Source: Spartobacteria bacterium LR76 (GTDB lineage: Bacteria > Verrucomicrobiota > Verrucomicrobiia > Chthoniobacterales > Terrimicrobiaceae). Taken from it: a stretch of DNA of 64,000 nucleotides. The notes under the pieces were generated by a model. The model made no database searches, was not told the origin of the DNA, and saw nothing but the letters and a program-made list of their open reading frames with translations. Positions 37,303 through 39,781 of this stretch are shown here, piece after piece. Made by a program: the position numbers and the translations under genes. The stretch is from positions 1-64,000 of the forward strand of contig QAYZ01000016.1 in the NCBI GenBank assembly GCA_003054655.1. Direction: 5' to 3'. The number at the start of each line of letters is the position of its first letter. Position 1 is the stretch's first letter.

Positions 37303-38703
37303 ATGAGTAGTGAATCCTCGCCCATTTCGATCGTCGCAGCCGAGCTAAAGCAGAAGCTGGGGGCTGACAATGTGATTTCCGATGCGGGCGATCTGGCAAA
37401 GTTCGGCGGCGACAAATGGTTCGCGAGCCATCAGCCGGATCTGGCGGTTTTTCCCCGCAACGCCGAGGAAACTTCACTGGTGATGCGACTGGCCCATGAG
37501 AACGAGATTCCGGTCACCACGCGCGGAGCAGGCTATGGGTATGTCGGTGGATGTGTGCCGGTGCGCGGCGGGATCGTGCTCGGTGTGCGGAACCTGACCC
37601 GCATCAAGGAGATTCACAACACGGACTTTGTCGCGGTCGTCGAGCCGGGTGTCATCACTGGAGACCTGCAGGACGCGGTGCAGGCGCAAAAGCTCTTTTA
37701 TCCGCCCGATCCCGCCAGCCTGCGCGATTGCAGCATAGGGGGAAACATCGCGACGAACGCGGGCGGCCCGCGCTGTCTGAAATACGGCGTGACCCGCAGT
37801 TATGTGCTTGGCCTGGAGGTCGTGCTGCCCGGCGGAGACGTGGTGCGCTGCGGCGGGCGCACCCACAAGAATAAGACGGGGTTCGATCTGGTGGGGCTTT
37901 TCTGCGGCTCGGAGGGTTTGCTCGGCGTGATCACCGAGGCGACGCTGCGGCTATTGCCTCTTCCTCCAGCCAGGGCCTCGGTTTCGGCGGGTTTTGTCGA
38001 CATGGCGGCGGCGGCGAAAGCCTTGCAGGCGGTTTTTGCCGAGGGCTTCCTTCCGGCGGCGCTGGAAGTGGCCGATGGGTTTACTCTCAACGCGGCGCGC
38101 AATTACAAGCCGGGCGCGCACTTTCCCCCAGGTGATGCGTTGCTGCTCCTCGACCTCGACGGGCAGAGGGAAAGCGTGATGAACGAGGCCCGTGTGCTCG
38201 GGAGGCTGCTGGAATCCTGCGGCTCGACCGGGGTGGAGGTGGCTACGACCGAGGCGGACCGGGAGAAGATCTGGGATCTTCGGCGCGCCTTCTCGCAGAG
38301 CCTCAAGGCCACGGGGCTGCGCAAGCTCAATGAGGACATCGTCGTGCCCCGAGGACGGCTGGTCGATCTCGTGAATTTCGCCCGCGATTTGCAGGCGCGC
38401 AGCGGGTTTCCCATCGCATGCTTTGGCCACGCGGGAGATGGCAATATCCACACCAACATCATGGTGGGCGACTATGATAATCCGGAGATTCGCGCACGGG
38501 CCGACGCCGCGCTCGACGAGCTCTTTGGGCAGATCATCGCCTGGGAAGGCGCGATCACCGGAGAGCACGGCATCGGTCTGGCGAAGATGCGCTGGTGGGA
38601 CAAGGCGCTCTCTGCGGAGAACCGCGCCTTGCACCAGCGGATCAAGCAGGCCGTTGATCCGAAGAACCTGCTGAATCCGGGGAAGTTTGTTTCGCTGGAT
38701 TAG
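37303..38703 (+). CDS. glcD: FAD-linked glycolate/lactate-type oxidase (GlcD family)
   Basis: 466 residues, the length of GlcD. The FAD-binding PCMH fold is marked by VTTRGAGYGYVGGCVPVRGGIVLGV near residue 60-85, PPDPASLRDCSIGGNIATNAGGPRCLKYG near 130, and GLFCGSEGLLGVITEATLRL near 200. The C-terminal oxidase cap ends with FGHAGDGNIHTNIMVG near 375 and GAITGEHGIGLAKMRWWD near 415. GlcD oxidises glycolate, and relatives oxidise D-lactate; no GlcE/GlcF partners are in the window. The start was set by the -10 element at 37291-37296. The 3' end overlaps the convergent transporter gene by 62 bases. Confidence 0.9.
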   Translation: MSSESSPISIVAAELKQKLGADNVISDAGDLAKFGGDKWFASHQPDLAVFPRNAEETSLVMRLAHENEIPVTTRGAGYGYVGGCVPVRGGIVLGVRNLTRIKEIHNTDFVAVVEPGVITGDLQDAVQAQKLFYPPDPASLRDCSIGGNIATNAGGPRCLKYGVTRSYVLGLEVVLPGGDVVRCGGRTHKNKTGFDLVGLFCGSEGLLGVITEATLRLLPLPPARASVSAGFVDMAAAAKALQAVFAEGFLPAALEVADGFTLNAARNYKPGAHFPPGDALLLLDLDGQRESVMNEARVLGRLLESCGSTGVEVATTEADREKIWDLRRAFSQSLKATGLRKLNEDIVVPRGRLVDLVNFARDLQARSGFPIACFGHAGDGNIHTNIMVGDYDNPEIRARADAALDELFGQIIAWEGAITGEHGIGLAKMRWWDKALSAENRALHQRIKQAVDPKNLLNPGKFVSLD

Positions 38704-39610
38704 GCGACTCCTTAAGCAGGCTCACGCCGAGTCCTCCAACAAGTGTGAGGAGGAATCCGCCAAACTGGGCAAAGTTGGGGCGTTCTCCGAGCACGGCCCA
38801 AGCCAGAGCAAAGGTTGTCACTGGTCCCACGGTCGAGATGATGGCGAAACGCTGTGCCCCGGCGCGCTTGAGTCCGATGCTCATCAGCAGTGCGGGTAAT
38901 ACCGTGCCGAAAGTCGCAAGGATCAGACCATACCCGTAGACGGCTGGCTTTTGATTCGCCAGTCCTGTGATGTCGCGTGTGAGTATTTCATGGGAGAGGA
39001 TGAAAATGCAGGAGAATCCCACCGCAATGCCTGTGAACCGCATCGATCCGACGCGGCTGATCGTGTCGCCGCTTAGCAGGATGAATGCGCCATAGCTCAC
39101 CGCGCTCGCAAAAATGAGCATCGCTCCGAAAGCGGCATGACCATTTGCGACCGGGTTGTGCATTTCTCCACCAAAGGCGGCGAGGATGCCCAGCCATGTG
39201 ATGGAACTGGCCAGCCAAACGGCGGGGCGTACGGGTTTCTTCAGCACCAGCGCGGAGAAGGCTAGCAGCAGGGTCGGGTAGGTATAGAGGATGACCCGCT
39301 CCAGCCCGACGCTGACGTATTGCAGCCCGGTGAAGTTCACGAGCGAGGAAAAGTAATACCCCACGAAACCGAGGCCCGCTAGCTTCAGCCACATCGCAGC
39401 GGTCAGCGGGGTTTGTCCCCGGGAGCCGAGGATGACCATCACAATAAAGAAGGGCAGGGCAAAGCCCATGCGGAGCGACAGTACGGTGAGCGCGTCTGCA
39501 CCAAGAGAATAGGCGAGCTTGGCGAAGACGCTCTTTGAGCAAAACAGGACGGAGCTCATCGCTACGATGAGAAAGGTCGAGATTGCATTGGTGGATCGGT
39601 GGGTGGTCAT
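38642..39610 (-). CDS. EamA/DMT-family transporter under a leader attenuator
   Basis: 322 residues from ATG 39610. About ten membrane helices lie in two EamA repeats (first ~10-140, second ~155-295). Typical features are the Pro/Gly-rich helix ends and ERVILYTYPTLLLAFSALVLKKP. The last helix is followed by a charged, disordered tail. DMT proteins usually export small metabolites or amino acids; the substrate is unknown. An intrinsic terminator ends 7 bases before this ATG and a 23-codon leader ORF lies upstream, so expression is probably controlled by attenuation. An in-frame TTG at 39685 would translate through the terminator and is unlikely. Confidence 0.85.
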   Translation of the reverse strand: MTTHRSTNAISTFLIVAMSSVLFCSKSVFAKLAYSLGADALTVLSLRMGFALPFFIVMVILGSRGQTPLTAAMWLKLAGLGFVGYYFSSLVNFTGLQYVSVGLERVILYTYPTLLLAFSALVLKKPVRPAVWLASSITWLGILAAFGGEMHNPVANGHAAFGAMLIFASAVSYGAFILLSGDTISRVGSMRFTGIAVGFSCIFILSHEILTRDITGLANQKPAVYGYGLILATFGTVLPALLMSIGLKRAGAQRFAIISTVGPVTTFALAWAVLGERPNFAQFGGFLLTLVGGLGVSLLKESPNPAKQTSPDSAGSSDQRPA

Positions 39611-39617
39611 GGATACG

Positions 39618-39648
39618 AAAAAACCCGCCGGAGTTGCCTCGGGCGGGT
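39618..39648 (-). terminator. attenuator terminator before the EamA gene
   Basis: On the minus strand acccgcc(39648-39642) pairs with ggcgggt (39629-39623) around an inner gag-gcaa-ctc stem. Six T residues follow (39623-39618). The start codon of the transporter is only 7 bases further on, so this terminator lies in the leader rather than between genes. Confidence 0.75.
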
Positions 39649-39713
39649 GAGCGGTGACTTGCTGGAAAAGAAACTTACACGGCAATAGACCACGCTCCCG
39701 CCCGCAGGCGGAG
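39640..39713 (-). promoter_or_regulatory. mutually exclusive leader RNA stems (attenuator)
   Basis: Region 1 is ctccgcc (39713-39707). Region 2 is gggcgggag (39703-39695) and can pair with region 1 as a protector hairpin. Region 2 extended, cgggcggg-agcg (39704-39693), also pairs with region 3, cgct-ca-cccgcccg, by 8 plus 4 base pairs around a 2-base bulge. Region 3 supplies the left arm of the terminator, so pairing 2:3 excludes termination. Regions 1 and 2 lie inside the leader ORF, so ribosome position would choose the fold. Confidence 0.65.
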
Positions 39714-39746
39714 AATCCAAATCGTGGTTTTGCCGAGTTTCAGCAT
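39675..39746 (-). CDS. 23-residue leader peptide of the EamA attenuator
   Basis: ATG at 39746, TAA at 39677-39675, 23 residues. The sequence begins MLKLGKTT, has Ile-Trp-Ile at 9-11, the basic stretch LRLRAG at 12-17 and Trp at 19. Trp10-Ile11 lies just before region 1 of the attenuator (39713-39707), so a ribosome paused there would mask region 1 and free region 2 to form the antiterminator. The ORF is preceded by TTGCCT-17-CACACT-6-ATG. The RAG core superficially recalls the arrest peptide SecM, but the essential Pro is Ala here. It is too short for routine gene calling. Confidence 0.55.
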   Translation of the reverse strand: MLKLGKTTIWILRLRAGAWSIAV

Positions 39747-39752
39747 GGCAGG

Positions 39753-39781
39753 AGTGTGAGGGTGAATTCCCGCTTAGGCAA
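39753..39781 (-). promoter_or_regulatory. promoter of the leader-EamA transcript
   Basis: On the minus strand TTGCCT (39781-39776), 17 bases, CACACT (39758-39753), 6 bases, ATG 39746. The -10 is weak (3 of 6), but the spacing matches the cupin and transporter promoters exactly. The transcript would start at the leader ORF's first codon. Confidence 0.45.

Follow-up and report, generated by a model that had tools for sequence, protein, structure and literature searches.

In the available portions of the published accounts, leader-peptide attenuation takes several forms. The trpL RNA of Sinorhizobium meliloti begins at the leader ATG (PMC7298713), and in Actinobacteria a tRNA synthetase gene, and not only a biosynthetic operon, can be the target of an attenuator (PMC1262725). 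Attenuation by a leader peptide is also known for an exporter, bmrCD (PMC4191407), and an assay of the his leader indicated that readout at one codon is possible (PMC4046918). Among the papers listed by an open-licence literature search, none described an attenuator on an EamA/DMT gene or one in Verrucomicrobiota. The available part of PMC2965389 contained no mention of DUF6, Verrucomicrobia or tryptophan, and the word transporter was not found in the available part of PMC1262725.

A window of 64,000 nucleotides from Spartobacteria bacterium LR76 (contig QAYZ01000016.1) was analyzed, where an attenuator-like element was found on the minus strand between a DUF6790 gene (stop 39790) and an EamA/DMT transporter gene (ATG 39610). 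A sequence-only reading had proposed a complete leader-peptide attenuator at this place, and its named parts were all located; the layout was conserved in relatives. Conservation of the layout, the position of a Trp codon where a control codon is expected, and the overlap of the alternative pairings were shown by computation, while we infer where transcription starts, that the leader ORF is translated, and that the element responds to Trp. The element is judged to be a real and conserved attenuator with Trp as its likely control codon. It probably belongs to the trp/his type of transcription attenuators, in which the ribosome is the sensor, with a single conserved Trp codon as the one that is read. 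No described family accounted for it: at the gathering score, the Rfam model RF00513 (Trp_leader) matched neither the window nor 17 further loci, made up of L015 and 16 leader loci. As a control, the trpL region of E. coli matched at 93.1 bits. No riboswitch or T-box family was matched either, and the Rfam scans gave nothing beyond one match of 15.4 bits (gathering score 49.5) and one tRNA in L034. The earlier statement that no such attenuator had been described thus held for both the Rfam matches and the literature search.

Table 1. Features of the proposed attenuator and its target gene in the window.
Feature	Position	Strand	Basis
Promoter-like pair, TTGCCT, 17 nt, CACACT	39781-39776 and 39758-39753	-	Sequence; 6 nt before the leader ATG
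Leader ORF, 23 codons, MLKLGKTTIWILRLRAGAWSIAV	39746-39675	-	ORF listing; conserved in congeners
Trp10 codon TGG, proposed control codon	39717..39719	-	Sole invariant column among aligned leaders
Protector hairpin (1:2), CTCCGCC with GGCGGGAG	39713-39707 and 39702-39695	-	7 pairs and a bulge, by eye
Antiterminator strand 2, CGGGCGGGAGCG (CGGGCGGG-AGCG)	39704-39693	-	Sequence, folding
Antiterminator strand 3, CGCT-CA-CCCGCCCG	39653-39640	-	Overlaps terminator 5' arm; sequence, folding
Intrinsic terminator hairpin and T run (T6)	39648-39623 and 39623-39618	-	-18.4 kcal/mol
EamA/DMT transporter gene, 322 aa, putative regulated gene	38642..39610	-	Pfam PF00892, E 1.9e-27

The protector hairpin lies directly 3' of the codons for Trp10 and Ile11, and strands 2 and 3 of the antiterminator form 12 pairs, of which the congener L003 keeps only an 8-pair core and not the AGCG:CGCT part. 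In the window, the terminator and antiterminator share the same bases and are mutually exclusive by sequence and folding. The T run of the terminator is separated from the EamA ATG by 7 nt. The whole leader, from the ATG to the T run, folded at -53.9 kcal/mol (z -3.71), and none of 200 shuffles was as stable.

The genes just upstream, encoding DJ-1/PfpI and DUF6790 proteins (40978-39790, minus strand), were alignable in two congeners. Farther upstream, at 42432-42402 on the same strand, a terminator-like hairpin had 14 pairs, the most in the scanned 18 kb; the ORF directly before it presumably encodes an isocitrate-dehydrogenase-like protein.

Close EamA homologues were sought in overlapping genome sets: at E 1e-20, 5 of 58 relatives had one; at E 1e-60, 6 of 213 members of the order did; and at E 1e-65, 7 of 68 genomes from one family did. 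With at most five candidates per genome scored, one was present in 10 of 384 genomes of a class sample (E 1e-55) and 5 of 387 of a phylum sample (E 1e-60). A contig search for EamA yielded 21 loci, including MAGs labelled Puniceicoccaceae (L011) and Verrucomicrobiales (L012). In 17 loci, EamA was preceded by both a leader ORF and a terminator; these loci represent 12 lineages from several families of Verrucomicrobiota, with transporters 36-96% identical to that of the window (L037 and L039-L042 left out). The counts leave out L001, L008, L009, and L010, as well as repeat records of the same loci (L029, L030, L036, L038, L057, L058, L060-L064, and L067), and the lineage counts also leave out the near copies L003, L004, L037, L039, and L041. 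The independence of the lineages is partial because some share a genus (L005, L006, and L007). A thirteenth lineage (L035 and L059), not among the 12, had no leader, and in both of its loci the upstream frame extends up to EamA. In a tree where all verrucomicrobial leader-bearing rows and L015 were labelled by hand, L059, which carries the same genus label as L035, fell outside the leader clade; the placement of L059 and L015 was unsure, with long branches, and that of L035 was uninformative, its sequence being in the wrong frame.

Among two congeners, the leader ORF was identical to that of the window at 70/72 and 68/72 nt and the terminator at 31/32 and 32/32, while the promoter gap was identical at 33/43 in both and the EamA gene at 94% and 86%. 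The leader ORF and terminator were better conserved than the promoter gap and spacer. Much of the EamA gene was as well conserved as the leader ORF, with 28% and 7% of its 72-nt segments reaching the identity of the leader ORF in the two congeners. Across the wider set, the distance from the leader stop to the terminator was 26-42 nt in 10 of the 12 lineages. In the genus that includes L033, L037, and L039, this distance was 93-95 nt, over double the usual length, with strong folding of the spacer; in L037, the T run was interrupted.

The promoter-like pair of the window is a weak match to the consensus (7 of 12 positions), and a consensus promoter scan of the window did not list TTGCCT-17-CACACT. 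Across lineages, a TTG at -48 to -34 recurred in 11 of 12 (shuffle mean 1.96, with none of 5,000 sets reaching 11). In 16 of 17 loci, a TTGNNN hexamer ahead of the ORF was followed 16-18 nt on by a hexamer resembling a -10 element, and the best promoter-like pair ended 6-18 nt before the leader ORF. The predicted 5' end of the RNA would thus be at the leader ATG or a few nucleotides before it, making the leader near-leaderless.

The weakness of this promoter would also agree with a reading in which no attenuator exists, where the hairpin terminates an upstream gene or operon, the ORF is due to chance, and the promoter of EamA lies inside or after the hairpin. Additionally, the DUF6790 and DJ-1 genes of the window run into the hairpin on the same strand. 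However, at all 17 leader loci a terminator counterpart was retained ahead of EamA, while the upstream neighbours of EamA varied. In L005 and L006, the neighbour was another, divergent gene, which we take to be murI-like, and the terminator cannot serve it because it points away. As the ORF and its Trp were conserved as well, this reading is barely plausible.

The stretch from promoter to terminator contained a short leader ORF in 12 of 12 lineages. In each of them, an ORF with the motif [LISG]W[LIR] was present within 230 nt upstream of the terminator, against a mean of 0.30 lineages and a maximum of 2 of 12 among dinucleotide shuffles (n=400), although the motif was defined after the leaders had been seen and the test was not blind. 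When ORFs were listed without a Trp filter (ATG or GTG start, 15-50 codons, terminator 15-110 nt past the stop), 15 in total qualified in the 12 lineages. Among 15 aligned leaders, Trp was the only invariant residue column, and the peptides were otherwise divergent, with a mean column identity of 29% apart from Trp. The placement of Trp10 and Ile11 just ahead of segment 1 in the sequence-only reading was correct, and Trp proved to be the sole invariant residue of the two. Of the cross-genome conservation on which that reading was to be judged, the layout of ORF and terminator was borne out, but the peptide codons beyond Trp were not conserved. A run of several control codons, which is usual for such attenuators but does not strictly define them, was absent, with one Trp codon per leader in 8 of the 12 lineages, two in three lineages, and three in one.

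The divergence of the peptide also bears on whether the nascent chain itself is sensed. In such a mechanism, similar to TnaC or SecM, arrest on a metabolite, for example free Trp, would induce an exporter when the metabolite is in excess. L-W-[IL] is common to most leaders, which would suit such an arrest, and Trp residues matter in TnaC and SecM. However, the low column identity leaves little of the peptide conserved beyond Trp, and synonymous changes did not exceed nonsynonymous ones in any of 8 leader pairs, although within genera the changes are too few for a strong test. For example, L005 and L007 differed by 6 synonymous and 11 nonsynonymous changes in the frame of the ORF; the other frames gave 1/15 and 2/14. 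The specific arrest core suggested earlier, Leu-Arg-Leu-Arg-Ala-Gly (LRLRAG), was not supported by the same 8 of 8 pairs, and the stretch was absent from leaders outside the genus. Moreover, folding with a ribosome positioned at the stop codon left the antiterminator paired at 0.45 or less in all 17 loci, and an arrest at the stop in the manner of TnaC should therefore not switch on EamA. Control by nascent-chain arrest is considered very unlikely.

The pairing expected during translation was then considered by placing the ribosome at each codon and folding the free RNA up to the terminator loop, as a nascent transcript. For most lineages, the terminator 5' arm remained highly paired with upstream sequence until the ribosome reached Trp, and this pairing dropped shortly after it; the exceptions were L012, where the drop was late, the L033 group, which was noisy, and L042, which had no clear drop. 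An unsupervised search placed the step at 19, 16, 17, 26, 19, 38, 13, 20, 24, 21, 13, and -4 nt from the TGG in the 12 lineages. In nine of these, it fell 12-24 nt after the TGG (mean 2.1 with permuted Trp, P 5e-5), including the window at 19 nt after the Trp10 TGG, while L007 (26), L012 (38), and L042 (-4) lay outside this zone. The step of the near copy L041 was at 29 nt, as compared to 21 nt in L040. The standard deviation of the step was 9.4 nt around the TGG, 12.4 nt around the start, and 8.9 nt around the stop. In E. coli trpL, thrL, hisL, pheL, and leuL (K-12 record), the step was 20, 14, 14, 14, and 20 nt past the last control codon, with pairing dropping within three codons of it. The leaders thus showed a control codon for a single amino acid in a fixed position ahead of strand 2.

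The folds of individual loci were less distinctive. With the ribosome at Trp, antiterminator pairing compared to composition shuffles of the spacer gave values of at most 0.05 in 6 of 17 loci, 0.07-0.105 in four, and unremarkable ones in seven. The antiterminator of the window alone is not significant in this comparison (0.105), and it is conservation that carries the case for an element beyond chance. In the full RNA at equilibrium with the ribosome at Trp, the terminator still won in 7 of 17 loci (about 0.93 or more). This outcome is not telling and only the nascent fold is informative, because the terminator also won in the full RNA for four of the five E. coli controls at their control codons.

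In ribosome-free RNA, the nascent fold already preferred the antiterminator in 13 of 17 loci (0.90 in the window), while in the full RNA from the ORF start the terminator prevailed in 16 of 17; the window was evenly balanced, at 0.49. The protector hairpin of the window was present in the full-length fold and absent from the nascent one. Adding 20 nt of 5' RNA lowered the full-RNA terminator to 0.02 in the window and 0.09 in L004, so the start site matters. As the nascent RNA favours the antiterminator and the full RNA depends on the start, the 1:2 protector is not the robust element that had been claimed.

The preference of the ribosome-free nascent RNA would also suit a general sensor of slow translation for a drug exporter, comparable to bmrB-bmrCD, which would respond to ribosome-targeting drugs or stress. 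Any ribosome stalled before strand 2 would then antiterminate, and the Trp codon would merely be a slow step. Similarly, in many loci a ribosome stalled at most of the codons as far as Trp gave high antiterminator pairing, and the transporter belongs to a drug/metabolite family. The bmrCD genes provide a precedent for such a sensor (PMC4191407). However, it does not account for the Trp codon being invariant in the position of a control codon, and the early leader codons were not conserved. We consider it rather unlikely.

Under the preferred reading, that of a Trp-codon attenuator, RNA polymerase would start at the leader ATG or a few nucleotides upstream of it. When Trp-tRNA is plentiful, the ribosome would pass the Trp codon and cover strand 2, and the terminator would form before EamA. 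When Trp-tRNA is short, the ribosome would wait at the Trp codon with its leading edge just short of strand 2, which would remain free to pair with the emerging terminator 5' arm, and EamA would be transcribed. An attenuator read in this manner would imply that EamA rises when Trp-tRNA is short.

A detector combining a W ORF, a hairpin, and a T run fired at all 11 EamA loci (L006 left out), at one of 14 trpS loci (L101), and at one of 13 trpE loci (L055). Each of the 14 genomes had one trpS match and a trpE match. The ORF detected at L055 forms the end of a 421-aa frame. The trpE count leaves out L052, which was viewed separately by eye and had W ORFs and no clear terminator, and the trpE gene of the window genome (L051:1-1600, reverse complement) abuts the preceding gene and has no leader. 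Since the detector fired at EamA loci and only rarely at trpS and trpE, the Trp attenuator was assigned to the transporter, and as far as seen it is not on trpE or trpS.

The candidate trpS match in L101 (reverse complement) consisted of a W ORF within a 50-aa open frame, about 350-170 nt before trpS of G491, with a hairpin of -9.1 kcal/mol before trpS.

A profile of the leader peptides searched against the 384 class genomes returned known EamA leaders as its five best matches. Noise began at about E 0.004, and one further known leader (L067) lay within it. The sensitivity of the profile is poor, as the window was missed at E 0.5, and other regulated genes may therefore exist. The 24 other profile loci that were checked by script, seven of them also by eye, were rejected as coding sequence or for missing parts; the match G341:C160 (E 0.0045) was left out of this set.

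A possible cousin was observed in an unplaced MAG with a more distant EamA (L015:1632-1742), 36% identical in its best segment. Its near-leaderless ORF, MQPTTAFHAWILPLWTT, is followed after 29 nt by a hairpin of -24.5 kcal/mol with a weak T run, and pairing dropped after the second Trp codon. No clear leader was seen by eye at the distant homologues L013, L014, and L016-L019.

A structure model of the window EamA supported the ten-helix DMT fold and nothing narrower. It matched SLC35B1, the triose-phosphate translocator, and LicB at Z 21-27, while a sequence search of the PDB with the protein gave no match at E 0.01. The structure matches include LicB, an importer, and 5i20 (title 'Crystal structure of protein'), which we take to be the aromatic exporter YddG, and as both directions are represented, the matches fit import as well as export. 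A permease of the Mtr/TnaB type (PF03222) was found in none of 14 genomes, which agrees with EamA as an importer and does not prove it. At the level of a guess, EamA could import Trp or an aromatic precursor, or export an analogue of Trp that inhibits tryptophanyl-tRNA synthetase.

EamA transporters are among the commonest uncharacterised membrane proteins, and a regulator that names an amino acid therefore makes substrate tests concrete. It is tentatively suggested that the leaders form a near-leaderless attenuator family, often with a single Trp, that controls an orphan DMT transporter across scattered verrucomicrobial families and in at least one bacterium from outside that transporter clade (L015). 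If so, the transporter would be part of Trp supply or of a defence against inhibitors of tryptophanyl-tRNA synthetase in bacteria that show no leader of this kind at trpE. Trp would then be the first functional clue for this orphan EamA clade. Judging by the papers listed in the literature search, a control-codon attenuator, often with a single codon, would be new to both the phylum and the class of transporter.

Among known systems, the element resembles the E. coli trp attenuator (trpL) in its short leader ORF, Trp control codon, and alternative antiterminator and terminator, as well as in a pairing step after the last control codon, at 20 nt in trpL. It differs from trpL in having mostly one Trp codon instead of two and in its target, a transporter and not trpE. 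The remaining comparisons draw on the available parts of the respective papers. The predicted start at or near the ATG is similar to that of the leaderless trpL of S. meliloti, which contains several consecutive Trp codons and controls a biosynthetic operon (PMC7298713). Similarly, the actinobacterial trp and trpS attenuators are Trp leaders outside Proteobacteria, although with double or triple UGG (PMC1262725). The bmrB-bmrCD system of Bacillus subtilis also places an export-type gene under leader-peptide attenuation, where the target is an ABC exporter and the trigger is ribosome-targeting drugs instead of amino-acid shortage (PMC4191407).
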